A DNA stretch of 23,397 nt, from positions 1-23,397 of IMG/VR virus record IMGVR_UViG_3300036780_000080; one strand, written 5' to 3'. The stretch is from a virus. Of this stretch, positions 17,033-22,775 are shown piece by piece. Position 1 is the first letter of the stretch, and every line of letters begins with the position of its first letter. The translations under genes and the position numbers were made by a program. The notes under the pieces were generated by a model. That model searched no databases. It saw only the letters and a list, made by a program, of their open reading frames with translations, and had not been told where the DNA came from.

Positions 17033-17256
17033 TCTTCCTCGACCACACCGCCCGGCTGGCGTTCATCGCCGGCGCGGTCGCCGGCGGAGGCGGCGGCTTC
17101 TGGCTGGGAGGCTGCGCGTGGCGGCTCGTCATGCGCAACCCGCTGGCCGGCGTGATCAGGGCCTACCGGGAGCTGTTCGCGGACATCCGGTACCTGTGCG
17201 AGACGGGCGAGCTGCGGCAGCGGGGGCGGCGGAACTGGCGGGGAGTGTGGCGCTAG
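17029..17256 (+). CDS. Small membrane protein after the endolysin
   Basis: GTG at 17029 overlaps the TGA of the lysozyme gene. The 75-residue product has one Gly-rich hydrophobic segment (LAFIAGAVAGGGGGFWLGGC, about residues 10-30) followed by a basic, Arg-rich cytoplasmic tail. It is the last gene of the + strand operon. A holin or antiholin role is possible, since endolysin-holin pairs are usually adjacent, but a single Gly-rich helix is not diagnostic. Confidence 0.6.
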   Translation: MIFLDHTARLAFIAGAVAGGGGGFWLGGCAWRLVMRNPLAGVIRAYRELFADIRYLCETGELRQRGRRNWRGVWR

Positions 17257-17618: not shown

Positions 17619-17747
17619 CTAGCGCGACTCCGGCAGCAGCGCCGTCATCGCCTCAAGTCGTTCCGCCGCCTGCGCGTCGCCCTCCGCCGCCTGCTCGCGC
17701 AGGTCGCGCACGTACAAGTCAGCAAGCCACACGGGCAGCGCAAACAC
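17619..17747 (-). CDS. 42-residue small protein, last gene of the minus operon
   Basis: On the minus strand GTG (17747-17745) is preceded at 6 bases by a perfect GGAGG (17758-17754) and runs to TAG 17619. The product (starting VFALPVWLADLYVRDLREQA) is helical and acidic in its second half. No membrane segment or Cys is present. The strong ribosome site and operon position are the evidence; function unknown. Confidence 0.55.
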   Translation of the reverse strand: MFALPVWLADLYVRDLREQAAEGDAQAAERLEAMTALLPESR

Positions 17748-17782: not shown

Positions 17783-17944
17783 CTAAATCGTATCGCCCCC
17801 GCGTGCCGCGTCCCGCCGTGCCTCCAGCTCGTCAAGCCTCGCGTGCACCTCCTCCGGCGACAGCCCCGCCATCCGGCCGTTCAGCCAGGTGACGCCGATC
17901 AGGTACGCCAGCTCGGCGCGCAGCGCACGCCACCACGCCCTCAC
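17783..17944 (-). CDS. 53-residue small protein
   Basis: I chose GTG at 17944 because it overlaps the TGA of the upstream gene (GTGA) and follows a GAGG; a longer frame would run deep into that gene. The product begins VRAWWRALRAELAYLIGV and ends with a charged helix (LSPEEVHARLDELEARRD). The N-terminal half is amphipathic with aromatic residues and the C-terminal half could pair as a coiled coil. No family recognised. Confidence 0.55.
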   Translation of the reverse strand: MRAWWRALRAELAYLIGVTWLNGRMAGLSPEEVHARLDELEARRDAARGGDTI

Positions 17945-18381
17945 GGCTCGCGTTCCTCGTGCCGCCACTCGCCCAGGATCATCCGGTCGCACACGATCCG
18001 CTTCCCGCACCGGCACACCGCCTCAACCGGGTAGTGCAGGGCGTTCCGCAGGTCCGCCCGGTTCCCCGCGTAGCGCGGGCCGATGCTGTACGCGGTGCGC
18101 CGCTGCGGCACGATCTCGTGGCCCCTTGGCAGTGCGGGCTCGCCCCGGTCGAAGCGGGCCTCCAGGTAGTCCATCAGCCAGCCGAGGTGCTCCCGCGCCT
18201 CGCGCCGCGGCTCGCCGTCGCCCGGCCCCGCGCACGCCTCGGTCCATGACGCGGTCCAGCCCTGGGGCGTCGCGGTGACCGACACGTGCCGGTGGCGCCT
18301 CACGAACGCCGCGGCCCGCGCCGCGTGGTCCGGTGCGCGGTCCACGCCGGGCACCTCTGGCAGGTCGCTGAACGGCCCCAT
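17941..18381 (-). CDS. Hypothetical protein with C-terminal Cys motif
   Basis: ATG at 18381 has GGGAGAAG just upstream; an earlier ATG at 18405 is possible but lacks such a site. The 146-residue soluble product has a central stretch with Trp and acidic residues (GWTASWTEACAGPGDGEP, then REHLGWLMDYLEARFDRG). Near its end it has CRCGKRIVCDRMILGEWR, with three Cys that could hold a metal together with a His. Its ATG overlaps the stop of a 24-codon ORF, and its stop overlaps the next start, so it is part of the chain of coupled genes. Function unknown. Confidence 0.6.
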   Translation of the reverse strand: MGPFSDLPEVPGVDRAPDHAARAAAFVRRHRHVSVTATPQGWTASWTEACAGPGDGEPRREAREHLGWLMDYLEARFDRGEPALPRGHEIVPQRRTAYSIGPRYAGNRADLRNALHYPVEAVCRCGKRIVCDRMILGEWRHEEREP

Positions 18382-18455
18382 CACTTCTCCCTTCCTGCGC
18401 CCCATCGGCGCACCCTGCCTGTTGCGGCGGCCAGCAGCACGCAGACGACGGCCAT
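18381..18455 (-). CDS. 24-residue hydrophobic micro-ORF
   Basis: ATG (18455-18453) overlaps the TGA of the upstream 40-residue ORF (TGATG), and its own TGA overlaps the ATG of the 146-residue gene in the same way. The peptide starts with MAVVCVLLAAATG, long enough for a short membrane segment, and ends basic (RVRRWGAGREK). No ribosome site of its own is seen. It may be a real membrane micropeptide or simply a coupling device. Confidence 0.35.
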   Translation of the reverse strand: MAVVCVLLAAATGRVRRWGAGREK

Positions 18456-18577
18456 CAGTGGACGTGGGGGTAGCAGGCCAGGCACTTGCCGCACTGCGGG
18501 CACCGGACGCGCCAGCCGCAGCCGTCGCCCCCCGTCCATGCGGCGCGGATCTTGTTCATCTGCCGCTTGAGTTCCAT
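18455..18577 (-). CDS. 40-residue zinc-knuckle-like protein
   Basis: ATG (18577-18575) has GGAGG (18590-18586) at good spacing and lies 3 bases after the stop of the preceding gene. The product has a basic N-terminus (MELKRQMNKIRAAWTGG) and a compact Cys/His cluster at its end (CPQCGKCLACYPHVH), giving four closely spaced Cys plus two His, enough to bind one zinc. No known family is assigned. Confidence 0.55.
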   Translation of the reverse strand: MELKRQMNKIRAAWTGGDGCGWRVRCPQCGKCLACYPHVH

Positions 18578-18580
18578 TTC

Positions 18581-18943
18581 TCAGTCCTCCATGTTTTCGA
18601 CGGTGCCCCTAACCAGGGGCGCCCAGCTGGCCTCCCCGGCGGTCTCGCCGGGGAGCGTGTGAACGTAGTGGTGGTGCTCCACGACCGCAGGCTTGGCCAT
18701 GTCGGCGCGGAGAGCGGCGGCCTGCCTGGCGACCGACGGGGAGTAGTCCGGGTAGCGGCGCCGCATCCACACCGCGGCGCCGACGAGCAGCACGGCCAGG
18801 ACCGCGAAGATGATCGCGAGGATCAGCAGGATGGTGGCCAGCCAGCCCGCGATCGCAACGGCCACGACAGCGGCGATTCCGGGGACGACGGGGATGTCCG
18901 GGCCGCCGCCCCCGGTGACCTGCCAGGTTCCGTGAAGGGGCAT
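18581..18943 (-). CDS. Membrane protein, SpdB-like small transfer-associated candidate
   Basis: ATG at 18943 has GGAGCGG upstream and sits two bases after the previous stop; longer frames overlap that gene. The 120-residue product has a hydrophobic block at about residues 20-62 (IAAVVAVAIAGWLATILLIL, AIIFAVLAVLLVGAAVWM) that predicts two closely spaced membrane helices, followed by RRRYP, so the C-terminus is probably cytoplasmic. The tail contains VEHHHYVH and is otherwise polar. Small membrane proteins downstream of FtsK/TraB-type genes in Streptomyces plasmids take part in spread between mycelial compartments; this role is inferred only from context. Confidence 0.6.
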   Translation of the reverse strand: MPLHGTWQVTGGGGPDIPVVPGIAAVVAVAIAGWLATILLILAIIFAVLAVLLVGAAVWMRRRYPDYSPSVARQAAALRADMAKPAVVEHHHYVHTLPGETAGEASWAPLVRGTVENMED

Positions 18944-18945
18944 GG

Positions 18946-19179
18946 CTACCGCTCCGCCCGTGCCTGCTGCAAAGACAGCTTCAGCTCGTGGACCTTCCGC
19001 GCGCCCAGCCGCCAGGTGCACCGCGTCCCCCTGCACCGCCAGCAGCGCAGGTGCAGGCGGCCGAACGCCGGGCACCAGCGGCACTCCCGCTCCGGGCTGG
19101 CGTACACGAACACCGCCCAAGCGACCACGGCCACCAGCACGAACGCCGCCACGGCGAGTACCGCCTCGATAACGTGCAT
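18946..19179 (-). CDS. Membrane-anchored zinc-ribbon protein
   Basis: ATG (19179-19177) has GAGGGAGAG upstream and follows the previous stop by one base. The 77-residue product starts with one membrane helix (AVLAVAAFVLVAVVAWAVFV) and then a cytoplasmic Cys cluster: CRWC, about 11 residues, CWRC, then one more Cys (GTRC). The end is basic and helical (RLGARKVHELKLSLQQARAE). Such helix-plus-ribbon proteins are, from memory, common next to FtsK-like genes in actinomycete mobile elements. They have no assigned function. Confidence 0.65.
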   Translation of the reverse strand: MHVIEAVLAVAAFVLVAVVAWAVFVYASPERECRWCPAFGRLHLRCWRCRGTRCTWRLGARKVHELKLSLQQARAER

Positions 19180-19180
19180 G

Positions 19181-19648
19181 TCACTCTCCCTCGTGCAGGC
19201 GCGGGCAGTCGTCCATCCCGCGCCAGTAGTTCTTGCACCCGTATCGCGGGCAGTCGCGGTCGCCGCAGGTGCCCGGCTCGTGACTCTCGCCCTTCGGCCG
19301 CGGCGTGCGCGGCCTGGTCCCGGCGCCCTTCTTGCGGGCACTGTCGCGGGCCCGCCGCTCGGCAGCGGCCTGCTTGCGCCGCGCCGCCTGCCGCTCCCTG
19401 GTGGCCCTCTTCTTGCGCTTCTTCTCGTCGGTCGCGGCCCGCCGCTTGCGGCTCTTGAAGTCGCTCGGCGCGTGGCAGGTGTGCCGTAGCCCGCGGTCCT
19501 GGTGGCACTTCGGGCACTCCCACCCGACCGGGTTGCGCAGCGTCGTGCGACCCCGGCGTCGCCTGCCCGGCGAGCACACGTGAGTACCGAGGCCGCGCGG
19601 CTTCCCGCACGCCCCGCAAAGGAAGGCCCCCGTCAGCTTCAACCCCAT
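19181..19648 (-). CDS. Basic protein with several zinc-finger-like Cys clusters
   Basis: ATG at 19648 starts a 155-residue product; an AAGGA lies about 12 bases upstream. Cys/His clusters occur at both ends: CGACG...HVC and CPKCHQ...HTCH in the first 60 residues, then CGDRDCPRYGC and a final DDCPRLH. The middle (about 65-110) is almost wholly Lys/Arg/Ala (KKRKKRATRERQAARRKQAA) and should form a long basic helix. This composition suggests nucleic-acid binding. The gene is the first after the GTGCCGCG repeat cluster, so binding to DNA there is an attractive but untested idea. Confidence 0.65.
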   Translation of the reverse strand: MGLKLTGAFLCGACGKPRGLGTHVCSPGRRRRGRTTLRNPVGWECPKCHQDRGLRHTCHAPSDFKSRKRRAATDEKKRKKRATRERQAARRKQAAAERRARDSARKKGAGTRPRTPRPKGESHEPGTCGDRDCPRYGCKNYWRGMDDCPRLHEGE

Positions 19649-19709
19649 GGGGCCGGCATCCTTCGTTGTCGTCGATCAGCGCACGGAACCGCAAAACCGC
19701 AGGCCGGCG

Positions 19710-19823
19710 CGCGGCACGCCCCGCGGCACGGATCGCGATGTGCCGCGCCCCGTGGCGTTTTCCCAGGTCAGCGCGTGCCGCGCCAGCGCGGCACATGTGC
19801 CGCGGCATCATGGCCGTGCCGCG
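19710..19823. repeat. Cluster of seven GTGCCGCG repeats, candidate clt/TRS transfer site
   Basis: Exact copies of the 8-mer lie at 19740-19747, 19775-19782, 19797-19804 and 19816-19823 (+) and at 19710-19717, 19722-19729 and 19787-19794 (-). Pairs form palindromes, including CGCGGCACATGTGCCGCG at 19787-19804 and a 20-bp one at 19775-19794. The last copy is inside the 3' end of the FtsK/TraB-like gene. In Streptomyces plasmids TraB binds 8-bp TRS repeats in the clt locus, often next to traB; the sequence differs, but the layout is the same. Elsewhere in the window I found only isolated copies. An operator for the downstream gene is the main alternative. Confidence 0.7.
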
Positions 19824-21919
19824 GCGGCTAGGTCGGCCTTCTTGCACCCCTTGCGGTTGGTGCCAGCACGGCCGGGAGGCCACCGGACATCGGTGCTCGG
19901 CACGCCCCGGCCGCGCGCCGCGGCGCTCACCGACTCGGTGGTCGCGTCCGCGTGCCGCATCGGCCACCGCTTCTCCAGCCGCTCGGCGGCCGTCTCCCAC
20001 CACAGCCCGGAGTCGCCTTCCATCACCGCCAGCAGGTCGGCGACGATGTCCGACTCCGGCTCGTCGAGCTCGTAGGCGGCGGCATCGCCGGACAGCGTGC
20101 GGTGCTTCTCCCGGAGCTTGCGCGCGGCGAGGCAGATCGCCTCGGCGTCTCCGCCGTCGGCCAGGTAGGTCCGCACGGTGGGCGCGTCGTCGGTGAGGCC
20201 GTACAGGATCCCGATGCCCTTGCGGTCGTCGCCAAGCGGCAGGCCGGAGGCGTCGTAGCCCTCGCCGTAGGACTCGTTCCCCATAATCGCCATGGACACG
20301 TCGCGCGTCGCGCACCGCAGCGCGAACCGGAGGATGTGGTTATCCCTGAACCGGTTGAACAGCCGCGTCATGTCCTGGCCGGACCCGACCCCTGACGGCT
20401 TCTGGGACAGGGACTCGATGATGACGCCCGCGGCCGGCCCGAGCGCCCCGATCCGCGACAGCACCGCCGCGAACTCCTTGCACTTCTTCTGGTCGTCCAG
20501 TTCGTAGTAGACCTGGAACTCTTCCATGACCAGGAGCTGGACGTGCAGGTCAGGACGCCGGTACAGCTTGAAGGTGAGCTTGCCTTCGGGGCACTCCGAC
20601 ACCGGCAGCTTGGCTAGTTCCTCGTTCACGTGCACGATGTGCCGGTCGATCTCGTACAGCGCGTCGAGGGCGCGCTGTACCGGGTCGCCGTCCTTCGTCG
20701 GGTGAGTGCCCTGGATGAACCGGTGCGCGACCATGCGGAGCGGCTGCCAGTCCTTCGACGCCTTCCCGTCGATCAGCGTGATGTCGACGAACGGGTCAAG
20801 CGCGGCGAACAGCGCGATCAGGCGCCCCGCGAAGGTCTTCCCGCGCCTCGGCTGCGCGCCGATCAGCAGTGAAGTCCACAGCAGGCAGAAGGCCGTCTTC
20901 TGCCCGAACTGGTCGAGGCCGAACGGGATCTTGTGCCAGATCGACCGCTGCTTGAGGTCGAGCAGCGGCGTCCGCCCGGCGGGCTCGGCGAGCGGGTCCG
21001 CGTCGAGGACGCGCAGCGTGTGACGCCGCTCGGACTTCCCGTCGCGGGTGGGGTACACCTGGCTGTCGAGCACGTCGAGGCCGGACGCGATCTTTGTCTT
21101 CGCGTTGACTACCTGCTCGAACGTGCCACCGAACGGCAGGTGGATGACGACCTGTGACCCCTTGTCGAGCGCGTCGCGGGACATCGTGGAGCCGAACGCG
21201 AGGTGGTCGGCGGGCTTCTTCGGGTCCGTCGAGCACAGGCCGGCCCGCTCGTAGGCGCGGACGATCGCGTCGGTGCTGATCTTCCGTATGAGTGGTGTCG
21301 TCACCGCGGACTGGACGATCGGCCGGTGCCTTGGCCTGCCCGCGTGGGCGAGCGGCGGCATGGCCGCCGCGGCGACGATGAGCCACGCCCACCAGGGGGC
21401 GAACGCTGCGACCAAGACGAACGTGAGCAGGATCGCGAACGCCTCAAGGCCGACCACGAAGCCCCGCACGCGGCGGGTCTTGCGGGCCGCGGCCAGCAGG
21501 GCGCGGTACTCAGGGGAGTTGCCCTCGACCACGGCCTTCGACCGCAGGTAGCCGTGCTCAGCCAGCCACCACCAGCCGACCTGCCGGCGGGTGACCTTGA
21601 CGGCGCCGGCGCACGCCCAGACGACGCCCCAGAACAGGTACCCGAGCAAGCGGATCAGGTGGAACAGGGTGTGGAAGCGGGCGGCGTCAGCGTGCTTGCC
21701 CGCGGTGCTCCTGATGCCCTTCCATGTGCGGAGGTGCTCGGGGACGATCAGCTTGCGTTCCCCGCCGAGAGAGGGGATCTCGATCCCGTCACCGTCGTGG
21801 ACGGGCTCGGGCTTCGGCGCGGTCTCGTCGAGGGCGTGCTCGAACGATGTGTCGCGGGGCACCAGGTGCAGCTCCGGCACCGCATCGTCGTCGTCGCCGG
21901 GGTGCAGCTGCGTCACCAT
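19808..21919 (-). CDS. FtsK/TraB-like DNA translocase
   Basis: I chose ATG 21919 (GGAGG 21931-21927 at 7 bases); an in-frame start 13 codons earlier exists. The product has 703 residues. An acidic, flexible N-terminus (1-70) is followed by membrane helices at about 89-107, 152-173 and 175-192. The motor domain follows: Walker A GAQPRRGKT (354-362), and a Walker B-like LLVMEEFQVY with Glu466/Glu467. The final 75 residues, with WETAAERLEKRWPMRHAD and a Lys/Arg-rich end, look like the winged-helix DNA-reading tail of FtsK/TraB. Such proteins pump double-stranded DNA between cells in mycelium. DUF2637 and GntR neighbours favour a conjugative TraB/TraSA-like role over cell division. Confidence 0.85.
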   Translation of the reverse strand: MVTQLHPGDDDDAVPELHLVPRDTSFEHALDETAPKPEPVHDGDGIEIPSLGGERKLIVPEHLRTWKGIRSTAGKHADAARFHTLFHLIRLLGYLFWGVVWACAGAVKVTRRQVGWWWLAEHGYLRSKAVVEGNSPEYRALLAAARKTRRVRGFVVGLEAFAILLTFVLVAAFAPWWAWLIVAAAAMPPLAHAGRPRHRPIVQSAVTTPLIRKISTDAIVRAYERAGLCSTDPKKPADHLAFGSTMSRDALDKGSQVVIHLPFGGTFEQVVNAKTKIASGLDVLDSQVYPTRDGKSERRHTLRVLDADPLAEPAGRTPLLDLKQRSIWHKIPFGLDQFGQKTAFCLLWTSLLIGAQPRRGKTFAGRLIALFAALDPFVDITLIDGKASKDWQPLRMVAHRFIQGTHPTKDGDPVQRALDALYEIDRHIVHVNEELAKLPVSECPEGKLTFKLYRRPDLHVQLLVMEEFQVYYELDDQKKCKEFAAVLSRIGALGPAAGVIIESLSQKPSGVGSGQDMTRLFNRFRDNHILRFALRCATRDVSMAIMGNESYGEGYDASGLPLGDDRKGIGILYGLTDDAPTVRTYLADGGDAEAICLAARKLREKHRTLSGDAAAYELDEPESDIVADLLAVMEGDSGLWWETAAERLEKRWPMRHADATTESVSAAARGRGVPSTDVRWPPGRAGTNRKGCKKADLAAAARP

Positions 21920-22098
21920 GCGAACCGCCTCCTGCACGGCTGGACGCCCCACCCGCACTCGGCCACCAGGATGGCGATGGACAGCCCGAGCGCCGCGAGG
22001 ATCACGACGATGACGGCCGCGGCGACCGCGAGCGCCAGGTGCACGCCAAGGAACGCCACGGCGGCCGCCAGGACGGCGAGCAGGGCACGCGCGATCAT
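21913..22098 (-). CDS. Small two-helix membrane protein (SpdA-like position)
   Basis: ATG (22098-22096) overlaps the TGA of the DUF2637 gene, and its end overlaps the translocase start by 7 bases. The 61-residue product is mostly hydrophobic (ALLAVLAAAVAFLGVHLALA, then VIVVILAALGLSIAILVAEC), giving two membrane helices and a short basic tail with two Cys (CGWGVQPCRRRFAW). Small membrane proteins next to traB-like genes are a hallmark of Streptomyces transfer operons. The specific role is unknown. Confidence 0.65.
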   Translation of the reverse strand: MIARALLAVLAAAVAFLGVHLALAVAAAVIVVILAALGLSIAILVAECGWGVQPCRRRFAW

Positions 22099-22775
22099 GA
22101 CCCGCCTCCGCTCAGCGCCTGGAGGATCTCGTCGCCCGGCTCGCCGTGCGCCGCGATGACCAGCTGGCGGACGGTGTCGTGGTGGACGTCGAACGCCGCC
22201 CCGATTCCCCGGTAAGAGGGATTCGCGCCCAGGCAGTTGCGCAGGTGCAGGTAGGCGTCAAGCAGCCGCTCGTCGCGGTCGTCCGCCACCCCGTGCCCGC
22301 ATCCGACAGTGACGACGGTGGCGGCCGGGACGGAGGGGGTGACACCGTCCCTGCCGCGCCTGACGAGCCCCGCGAGGGACTCAAGCGCGAGGGTGAACGC
22401 CAGTGCCGGCCACCCGTTGACCAGCCACTTCGGCACGTCGTGCGGGTTGCCCGCCGCCACGTTCAGGGCGAGGGTGACCACGATGCCGACACTCAGCGCC
22501 ACCATCGTCAGCCGCGGCCGGCCAAGGCCCGCGCGGGACGCGGCGAGCAGGTCGGCCGACGCGCCGAGGATGACGAGGTCCGCCAGGGCGGGCACGAGGT
22601 ACGACACCGGCGGCCGGGCGCCGGAGGCGTCCACCACGGCGAAGGCGTGGAAGTAGCTGGCGACCCCGGCGATAAGGGAGACGCCGCCAAGGGCCAGCCA
22701 GCCGACGACACGCGGCGCGCGGGCGGCGCGGCCTGGCGCTGTAGCGGCTGCTGGGGGGGAATCTGTAGGCTCCAT
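22095..22775 (-). CDS. DUF2637 / SpdB-family membrane protein with C-terminal HTH
   Basis: ATG (22775-22773) has CCAGGAGAGG upstream (22790-22781). The 226-residue product has four membrane helices at about 23-45 (GWLALGGVSLIAGVASYFHA), 56-80, 88-109 and 117-138, matching DUF2637 proteins, which are seen with FtsK/TraB in actinomycete plasmids and AICEs. The C-terminal 55 residues (DERLLDAYLHLRNCLGANPS, then YRGIGAAFDVHHDTVRQLVI) look like a helix-turn-helix, so it may bind DNA while membrane-bound. It heads the minus operon. Spread or transfer support is the known family context; the biochemical function is not known. Confidence 0.8.
   Translation of the reverse strand: MEPTDSPPAAATAPGRAARAPRVVGWLALGGVSLIAGVASYFHAFAVVDASGARPPVSYLVPALADLVILGASADLLAASRAGLGRPRLTMVALSVGIVVTLALNVAAGNPHDVPKWLVNGWPALAFTLALESLAGLVRRGRDGVTPSVPAATVVTVGCGHGVADDRDERLLDAYLHLRNCLGANPSYRGIGAAFDVHHDTVRQLVIAAHGEPGDEILQALSGGGS

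Follow-up and report, generated by a model that had tools for sequence, protein, structure and literature searches.

Putative zinc proteins of two families accompany TraB-type translocases in temperate actinophages and other actinobacterial elements

We analyzed a viral contig of 23,397 nt (IMG/VR record IMGVR_UViG_3300036780_000080), the whole of which is hereafter called the window, in which a minus-strand operon forms the 3΄ portion of a TraB-type (FtsK-like) double-stranded DNA (dsDNA) transfer module. Judged from its genes, the operon is the putative downstream half of a TraB-type conjugation module in a temperate actinophage, with lysis genes alongside. A sequence-only reading had described four proteins with Cys/His clusters and a two-helix membrane protein in this operon, and all five were confirmed as open frames on the minus strand: a Lys/Arg-rich protein with three presumed zinc sites (hereafter, the tri-zinc protein), a membrane-anchored zinc ribbon, the two-helix protein, a Cys knuckle of 40 amino acids (aa) and a protein containing CRCG (Table 1). 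The ribbon and the tri-zinc protein probably serve TraB-mediated DNA transfer, and their exact biochemical roles are less certain. This interpretation is based on the linkage of both proteins to translocase genes in two search directions, their conserved ligands, the presence of clt-like DNA and the published biology of TraB and Spd proteins. The kind of system is already known: TraB, clt and Spd proteins are established in plasmids and in actinomycete integrative and conjugative elements (AICEs), according to four papers (PMC3218068, PMC4170104, PMC9513070, PMC12857230). As far as the libraries and our searches show, three things are new: the two zinc families as TraB companions, a correlation between a TraB residue and a DNA repeat, and how widely the module occurs in temperate phages. 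A literature search found no description of the ribbon, of a zinc partner of TraB or of a clt code; its coverage was partial and does not amount to proof of novelty.

An alignment of the translocase was searched against genome contigs and found at least 545 relatives, of which the best 80 were retained as loci for every 80-locus count given below. A model of the ribbon matched in 69 of these 80 actinobacterial TraB loci, in every case on the sense strand and downstream of the translocase. The model had been iterated on the very frames on which it was counted (the first pass, from six sequences, gave 73 hits), and the count was checked independently by a plain motif test and by a reverse genome search. 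In the motif test, 63 of 78 loci had a hydrophobic stretch with two CxxC pairs on the sense strand of the 1.5 kb downstream of the translocase, and the same motif occurred in none of 366 control stretches from five sets (0/78, 0/74, 0/74, 0/70 and 0/70). In the reverse search, 246 whole genomes of the class were queried with the ribbon alignment; 24 genomes matched, and 30 of the matching loci were fetched. All 24 loci with E ≤ 1.7e-7 had a translocase immediately upstream, that of L113 being degraded, whereas none of the six loci with E ≥ 4.9e-4 did; three of these six matches lay in frames of 381–488 residues, the size of DnaJ. Among the 24 strong loci, 22 were new and the other two were already in use. 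In the Pseudonocardia plasmid pPaSha2, in a Streptomyces integrative plasmid and in Nonomuraea, the gene that directly follows FtsK encodes a protein similar to the 77-aa ribbon of the window. Searches with two single ribbons (tblastn) against plasmids or phages returned the query itself or nothing; these blank results carry little weight because the known pPaSha2 copy was missed as well.

The ribbon family follows the pattern helix, Y, C, PF, CRxCxGxG, linker, CRRCxGxGxRLRxGRR. Across 75 ribbons, the outer two of the four cysteines never varied, nor did one proline, one arginine and one glycine; the middle two cysteines were kept at 96–97%. The ratio of nonsynonymous to synonymous substitution rates was below 1 for the tri-zinc and ribbon proteins, with two ranges of 0.30–0.68 and 0.23–0.63 obtained from short sequences. 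A structure model of the ribbon placed a helix at residues 2–27. By the positive-inside rule, the basic part that follows a single membrane helix faces the cytoplasm; since the basic C-terminal part of the ribbon follows such a helix, its zinc domain would face the cytoplasm. Two observations on ribbon genes are recorded here. Contig 1 of G003, the genome to which locus L025 belongs, has three equally scoring ribbon copies (7370631-7387142), spaced 8127 and 8130 bases apart, which suggests that an integrated element of approximately 8.1 kb is repeated there in tandem. In L020 and L021, a further membrane protein, distinct from the ribbon and carrying two CxxCxGxG-type pairs, is encoded after it (L020:9319-9564 and L021:9329-9544).

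The tri-zinc protein is less widespread. Relatives were found in 7 of the 80 loci, each time after TraB and before the ribbon position; the count excludes a weak hit in an eighth locus (L067, E = 0.0017, opposite strand). When the search was started from the tri-zinc protein in 200 genomes of the order, six loci were obtained, with a translocase upstream in 6/6 and a ribbon downstream in 5/6, the sixth locus ending with its contig. In these sets, L018/L128 and L020/L129 each denote one locus entered twice, and the match of L133 is limited to its last part. Twelve presumed ligands (C11, C14, H23 and C25; C45, C48, H56 and C58; H123, C128, C133 and C138) were invariant in all 17 aligned relatives, the alignment omitting L130 and L133, both of which lack a finger. 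From this conservation, we infer that the tri-zinc protein binds metal through these twelve residues. Yae1_N matched five of the 17 family members (best E = 7.4e-6), and the window protein matched no family; the Yae1_N identity was rejected, as the match was traced to Gly-rich C-terminal repeats in the relatives. Such GxxxGY-like repeats were seen by eye at the C-terminal ends of the proteins of L131, L132, L019 and L079, and are absent from the window protein. Plasmid pFP11 encodes a Lys-rich protein with several CxxC pairs after TraB (L180:6779-7489), placed like the tri-zinc protein; the comparison gave a probability of 12%, and no relation is claimed.

The sequence-only reading had proposed, as one possibility, an undescribed DNA-handling complex at the membrane that helps the pump, to be checked by co-occurrence with FtsK/TraB-DUF2637 genes. 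Two of the four Cys/His proteins, the ribbon and the tri-zinc protein, did co-occur with TraB in both search directions, which supports a part in transfer for these two, whether or not in a complex; the 40-aa knuckle and the CRCG protein were not shown to be members of the module. The word 'undescribed' is apt for the two zinc families in the libraries scanned, and too broad in that membrane-associated Spd proteins encoded with TraB are already known. Scans with Pfam and NCBIfam placed none of the small proteins of the window above a cut-off.

The zinc modules of the DnaJ central domain, anti-TRAP and antiterminator Q, which differ in function, resemble the ribbon in having CxxCxGxG pairs, and the ribbon differs from them by its membrane anchor and basic tail. 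The ribbon could accordingly be a DnaJ-like assembly factor or chaperone of TraB, or a transcription factor similar to antiterminator Q, rather than a DNA-contacting part. The DnaJ central domain was weakly matched by 30 of 36 ribbon members (E up to 0.1), and profile matches to the PDB included antitermination protein Q (1.6e-5) and DnaJ (0.014). However, the first ribbon member reached 16.2 bits against a cut-off of 32.7 for the DnaJ central domain (PF00684), and the anti-TRAP match was likewise below its cut-off. The single membrane helix, the strongly basic C-terminus and the lack of a J-domain also speak against these roles, none of them being decisive between roles. We regard a chaperone-like or Q-like function as rather unlikely, and it would be compatible with a part in transfer.

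The translocase itself aligns over its full length with plasmid FtsK proteins, has N-terminal hydrophobic segments and has relatives in 46 plasmid records. It was unmatched in a Pfam scan, FtsK_SpoIIIE included, and its relative in L053 scores below the FtsK_SpoIIIE cut-off. Small proteins that look like WhiB regulators by a sequence motif are encoded directly upstream of translocase genes at L142:9475-9750 and L138:2571-2852.

The phage context is seen on the plus strand of the window and in related contigs. Genes on the plus strand encode a protein with a tail-tube match (below the cut-off), a protein of the pectate-lyase type, one rich in glycine and a GH25 lysin; a small frame ending at 17256 comes next. 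The module genes on the minus strand are convergent with these phage genes. Two sister contigs, G001 (51,386 bases) and G002 (53,085 bases, with a 99-base end repeat), both from the same metagenome, share DNA identity with the window of 90% over 18.6–22.0 kb and 88% over 18.6–23.2 kb, respectively. Portal, terminase, head-protease and capsid genes are present across G001 and G002 combined, and GntR-type regulators adjoin the module in both. As virion functions of a temperate phage, we thus found the tail-tube match and the lysin in the window, and the portal, terminase and capsid genes in the sisters. The integrase is of the serine recombinase type in G001 and of the tyrosine type in G002; the window contig stops short of that position. 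The structural genes of the window had no DNA match in G001, while the module (18607-22035) is 88–90% identical between the sister phages. Because of this difference and the different integrase classes, the transfer module seems to move between phages as one block. Phage records gave zero matches, both in a DNA-level search with the operon region and in tblastn searches that used the finger protein, the CRCG protein or FtsK singly.

Among viral contigs, the translocase alignment found 37, of which 28 were matched by the ribbon model, and a ribbon was recognized by eye in L156. By the models used, 38 viral records (these 37 and L138) contained a portal in 18 cases and a terminase in 20, with at least one of the two in 22. 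A ribbon match was present in 20 of these 22 records (L164 counted), so the module is common in phages of this kind. In L164 (12155-12310), the ribbon is reduced to the membrane anchor, the PF motif and a basic RLRLGRR tail, the zinc core being lost.

With phages as carriers, the translocase and its companions might serve the phage itself, either in the segregation of an extrachromosomal prophage or in DNA movement across septa within one mycelium. Extrachromosomal actinobacterial prophages exist (PMC7157519), Spd proteins act in spread within the mycelium (PMC12857230), and the FtsK-like PHROG matched by the window translocase is categorized as 'moron, auxiliary metabolic gene and host takeover'. 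Nevertheless, an integrative plasmid and many chromosomal loci carry this gene set as well, integrase genes are present in the sister phages, and the repeat cluster after the translocase gene is positioned like the clt of a conjugative plasmid (PMC3583192). We therefore consider a function confined to the phage improbable.

The transfer reading is also consistent with the organization of known elements. The pSVH1 module of Streptomyces venezuelae (GntR regulator, small membrane protein, SpdB2, TraB, clt and further open reading frames) shares its gene order with the module described here, including a regulator, a multi-helix membrane protein, TraB, a repeat cluster directly after traB, and small genes; it differs in that no relative of the ribbon or the tri-zinc protein was found among its tested proteins, and in that the element here is a phage. 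Similar to the sister phages, AICEs have a single FtsK-like Tra protein, an integrase and GntR, and relatives of the module occur both in chromosomes and in an integrative plasmid; unlike AICEs, the sister phages bear portal, terminase or capsid genes. Phage and transfer genes are combined in plasmid pPaSha2 (holin, Bet), which carries DUF2637, FtsK and the ribbon in order. They are likewise combined in one element in the plasmid-phage pZL12, known here from reference lists and a passing mention, where a cited title names transfer functions (PMC7157519, PMC4487206). A small zinc protein encoded beside FtsK is also represented by the RRQRL motif-containing zinc-binding protein (NF041638), the model of which had no match among the window proteins. 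Such RRQRL proteins flank FtsK in two Streptomyces plasmids, at L014:6327-6674 (NF041638 match) and L017:8718-9062 (by annotation).

In published accounts, the membrane proteins called Spd are encoded together with traB and are required for intramycelial transfer (PMC12857230); they are very diverse and lack similarity to characterized proteins (PMC4170104). We searched for a sequence relation between the zinc proteins and the proteins of pSVH1, pIJ101, pFP11 and two more plasmids, and found none to Spd proteins: the best full-sequence E value was 0.022 for the ribbon and 0.053 for the tri-zinc protein, and in both cases the protein hit came from outside pSVH1 and pIJ101. The ribbon and the tri-zinc protein are similar to Spd proteins in position, and were not shown to be members of that group.

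We then considered the DNA between the translocase gene and the tri-zinc gene, which the sequence-only reading had left out and where known clt sites are located. Besides the seven copies of the repeat listed in Table 1 (GTGCCGCG, with the form CGCGGCAC), only three more copies of GTGCCGCG occur across 23.4 kb, and G001 and G002 carry the same cluster. In the corresponding gaps of the genome loci, the most repeated 8-mer exceeded all 100 dinucleotide shuffles in 55 of 79 cases, and its count was reached by 1–3 shuffles in nine others. At least four copies of an 8-mer were present in 44/79 gaps, compared with 0/79, 1/77, 0/79 and 0/76 nearby control stretches. For viral contigs, 30 of the 37 loci were tested, L139 and L140 (that is, G001 and G002) being tested apart and L168, L169, L173, L174 and L175 left out as partial translocase matches; no shuffle reached the observed count in 15 of the 30. 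As a positive control, the same count on pSVH1 recovered five copies of GACCCGGA after traB, which we take to be the published recognition motif of pSVH1 TraB. According to one study, clt sites are made of repeats, the clt of pWTY27 includes the last part of the tra gene plus the neighboring 159 bp, and the 8-bp repeats of pSVH1 are read by the C-terminal winged helix of TraB (PMC3583192). The repeat cluster of the window is probably read by the TraB pump.

Repeats of the GCTACC type were found in 34 loci and those of the GCGACC type in 19. We compared these groups with every translocase column containing few gaps in 52 loci (33 + 19; the truncated L096 was dropped). One TraB column separated the groups in 52/52 loci, the best of all columns when the kinship of the loci is ignored, with V, T, N or P accompanying GCTACC, and A or K accompanying GCGACC. 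In the L053 protein, this column corresponds to position 653, 19 residues short of the C-terminus; the neighboring column was second (48/52). The translocases of L079 and L018 are 88% identical, yet they differ in both the motif and the separating residue. Among loci outside the set, L099 (T), L123 (A) and L130 (T) agree, L131 and L132 combine residue A with a GCGAC motif, and L105 and L106 combine N with four GCTACC versus two and one GCGACC; most other loci have different motifs or no cluster. This pattern suggests that the separating residue may contact a base of the repeat. The repeated 8-mers could alternatively be operators or other regulatory sites, as they lie in an intergenic gap and a GntR-type regulator gene is near the module in the sister phages. 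The prediction of the motif by a TraB residue, including in the 88%-identical pair, the agreement with the position of a known clt (PMC3583192) and the recovery of the pSVH1 repeats at the same place make this explanation very unlikely. The interpretation of the module as a transfer system gains strength from the clt-like repeats and from the way in which they covary with TraB.

Several observations weigh against this interpretation or restrict it. The ribbon was missing in 11 of the 80 genome loci, of which two (L018, L061) are cut by a contig end, seven belong to Frankia/Pseudofrankia and two (L094, L097) are unexplained; 9 of the 37 viral loci, including L156, had no match to the ribbon hidden Markov model. 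The ribbon is therefore not strictly required. Neither a ribbon nor a tri-zinc relative was found among the tested proteins of pSVH1 and pIJ101, and thus TraB transfer can work without them. In the phage ribbons (window, G001, G002), the GxG glycines are lost and the four cysteines kept. No repeat cluster was found in 15/79 genome gaps, and 15/30 viral gaps failed to exceed every shuffle. The structure models were weak, with predicted local distance difference test scores of 73.6 (ribbon) and 61.7 (tri-zinc); a Foldseek search with the former gave zero PDB matches, and the latter was kept out of fold searches. Finally, the transfer role of both proteins is a prediction from sequence.

The features of the module are listed in Table 1. 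The first four small genes (155, 77, 120 and 40 aa) are spaced by 1, 2 and 3 nt, the CRCG gene starts 49 or 73 nt beyond the 40-aa gene, and the third-position GC content is high (0.81–0.94) in all five frames, two of which were measured with an upstream extension; the five are genuine genes packed closely into one operon. For the DUF2637-type protein, the G001 counterpart scores 29.5 bits, above the Pfam cut-off, and SpdB2 of pSVH1 itself gave no match in the Pfam DUF2637 search.

Table 1. Features of the predicted transfer module in the window
Feature	Position	Strand	Evidence
DUF2637-type membrane protein, first module gene (SpdB2 position)	22095..22775	-	Pfam DUF2637, 19.1 bits, below the cut-off of 22.8
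61-aa membrane protein, overlapping the translocase start	21913..22098	-	Counterparts in G001 and G002; phmmer 4.9e-11 in viral contig L138
TraB/FtsK-type DNA translocase; putative C-terminal DNA-reading region ends near 19808	19808..21919	-	phrog_1358, FtsK/SpoIIIE-like, 2.3e-13
Candidate clt, seven copies of GTGCCGCG/CGCGGCAC at 19710-19823	19649..19823	.	159-nt gap and last 16 nt of the translocase gene
Tri-zinc Lys/Arg-rich protein, 155 aa, 10 Cys	19181..19648	-	CxxC-x8-HxC, CxxC-x7-HxC, long basic helix, H-x4-C-x4-C-x4-C
Membrane-anchored zinc ribbon, 77 aa, 5 Cys	18946..19179	-	One N-terminal hydrophobic helix, two CxxC, basic C-terminus
Two-helix membrane protein, 120 aa, 0 Cys	18581..18943	-	Long hydrophobic stretch, His-rich tail (EHHHYVHTLPG)
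40-aa Cys knuckle, 5 Cys	18455..18577	-	GGAGG upstream
CRCG protein, 154 or 146 aa, 4 Cys	17941..18405 or 18381	-	Contains CRCG; C-terminal HYPVEAVC...W.H stretch
Small frame	17783..17944	-	Same direction, downstream of the CRCG protein
Small frame	17619..17747	-	Same direction, further downstream

In the sister phages, other small genes fill the positions of the last three of these five genes. The two-helix protein is present in G002, has a weaker relative in L142 (phmmer 1.9e-5) and has no relative in any of the 80 genome loci. No relative of the 40-aa knuckle was found in the five neighborhoods tested; a GpA_ATPase match (0.015, below the cut-off) was taken as chance. The CRCG protein is 41% identical to a G001 protein over residues 93-153 only, and more weakly similar in G002, the N-terminus not being shared; an 82-residue protein after the ribbon in L141 resembles its C-terminal stretch by eye, and 12 stretches in viral contigs fit its pattern, none of which was confirmed. 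We regard all three as variable genes, the knuckle being probably variable cargo; for the knuckle and the CRCG protein, the description as genuine Cys-cluster proteins rests on composition. Anti-defence or host-control functions are frequent among phage genes that neighbor lysis and integrase genes, and the variability of the final operon genes agrees with the second proposal of the sequence-only reading, namely that the set has such functions, in which case it would follow the translocase by happenstance; as PADLOC models matched 0/10 proteins and the ribbon and tri-zinc genes follow TraB in non-phage elements too, we find this proposal the least credible for the set, although the 40-aa and CRCG proteins may be genes of this kind.

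On these grounds, the following course of transfer can be proposed. The module would be derepressed from a GntR-type regulator, of the kind encoded beside it in the sister phages, after excision or in a circular prophage. TraB would assemble on the clt repeats via its C-terminal domain and pump double-stranded phage DNA across the membrane into a neighboring compartment or hypha. The ribbon, anchored by its N-terminal helix, might touch DNA or TraB at the pore with its basic cytoplasmic zinc domain, and the tri-zinc protein might bind DNA or bridge DNA to TraB. From these proposed roles at the pore and on the DNA, the two would be Spd-like accessory proteins. The phage would thereby gain a second, virion-free route of spread within the mycelium.

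How a single FtsK-like protein moves dsDNA between hyphae, and what the spd-type genes contribute, is the question addressed by these results. It is made testable by the ribbon found beside most such pumps, by a candidate code for TraB–DNA recognition and by the presence of the module in temperate phages, and clt sites are predicted for tens of elements. More tentatively, and with somewhat less than even confidence, we propose that many temperate actinophages are also conjugative and, in addition to forming virions, can send double-stranded genomes through a TraB pump, with clt repeats read by a simple residue-to-base code and two previously unrecognized zinc components, of which the ribbon is near-constant across actinobacterial TraB elements of this type. 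If this is true, some actinophages would be able to spread without leaving the mycelium.

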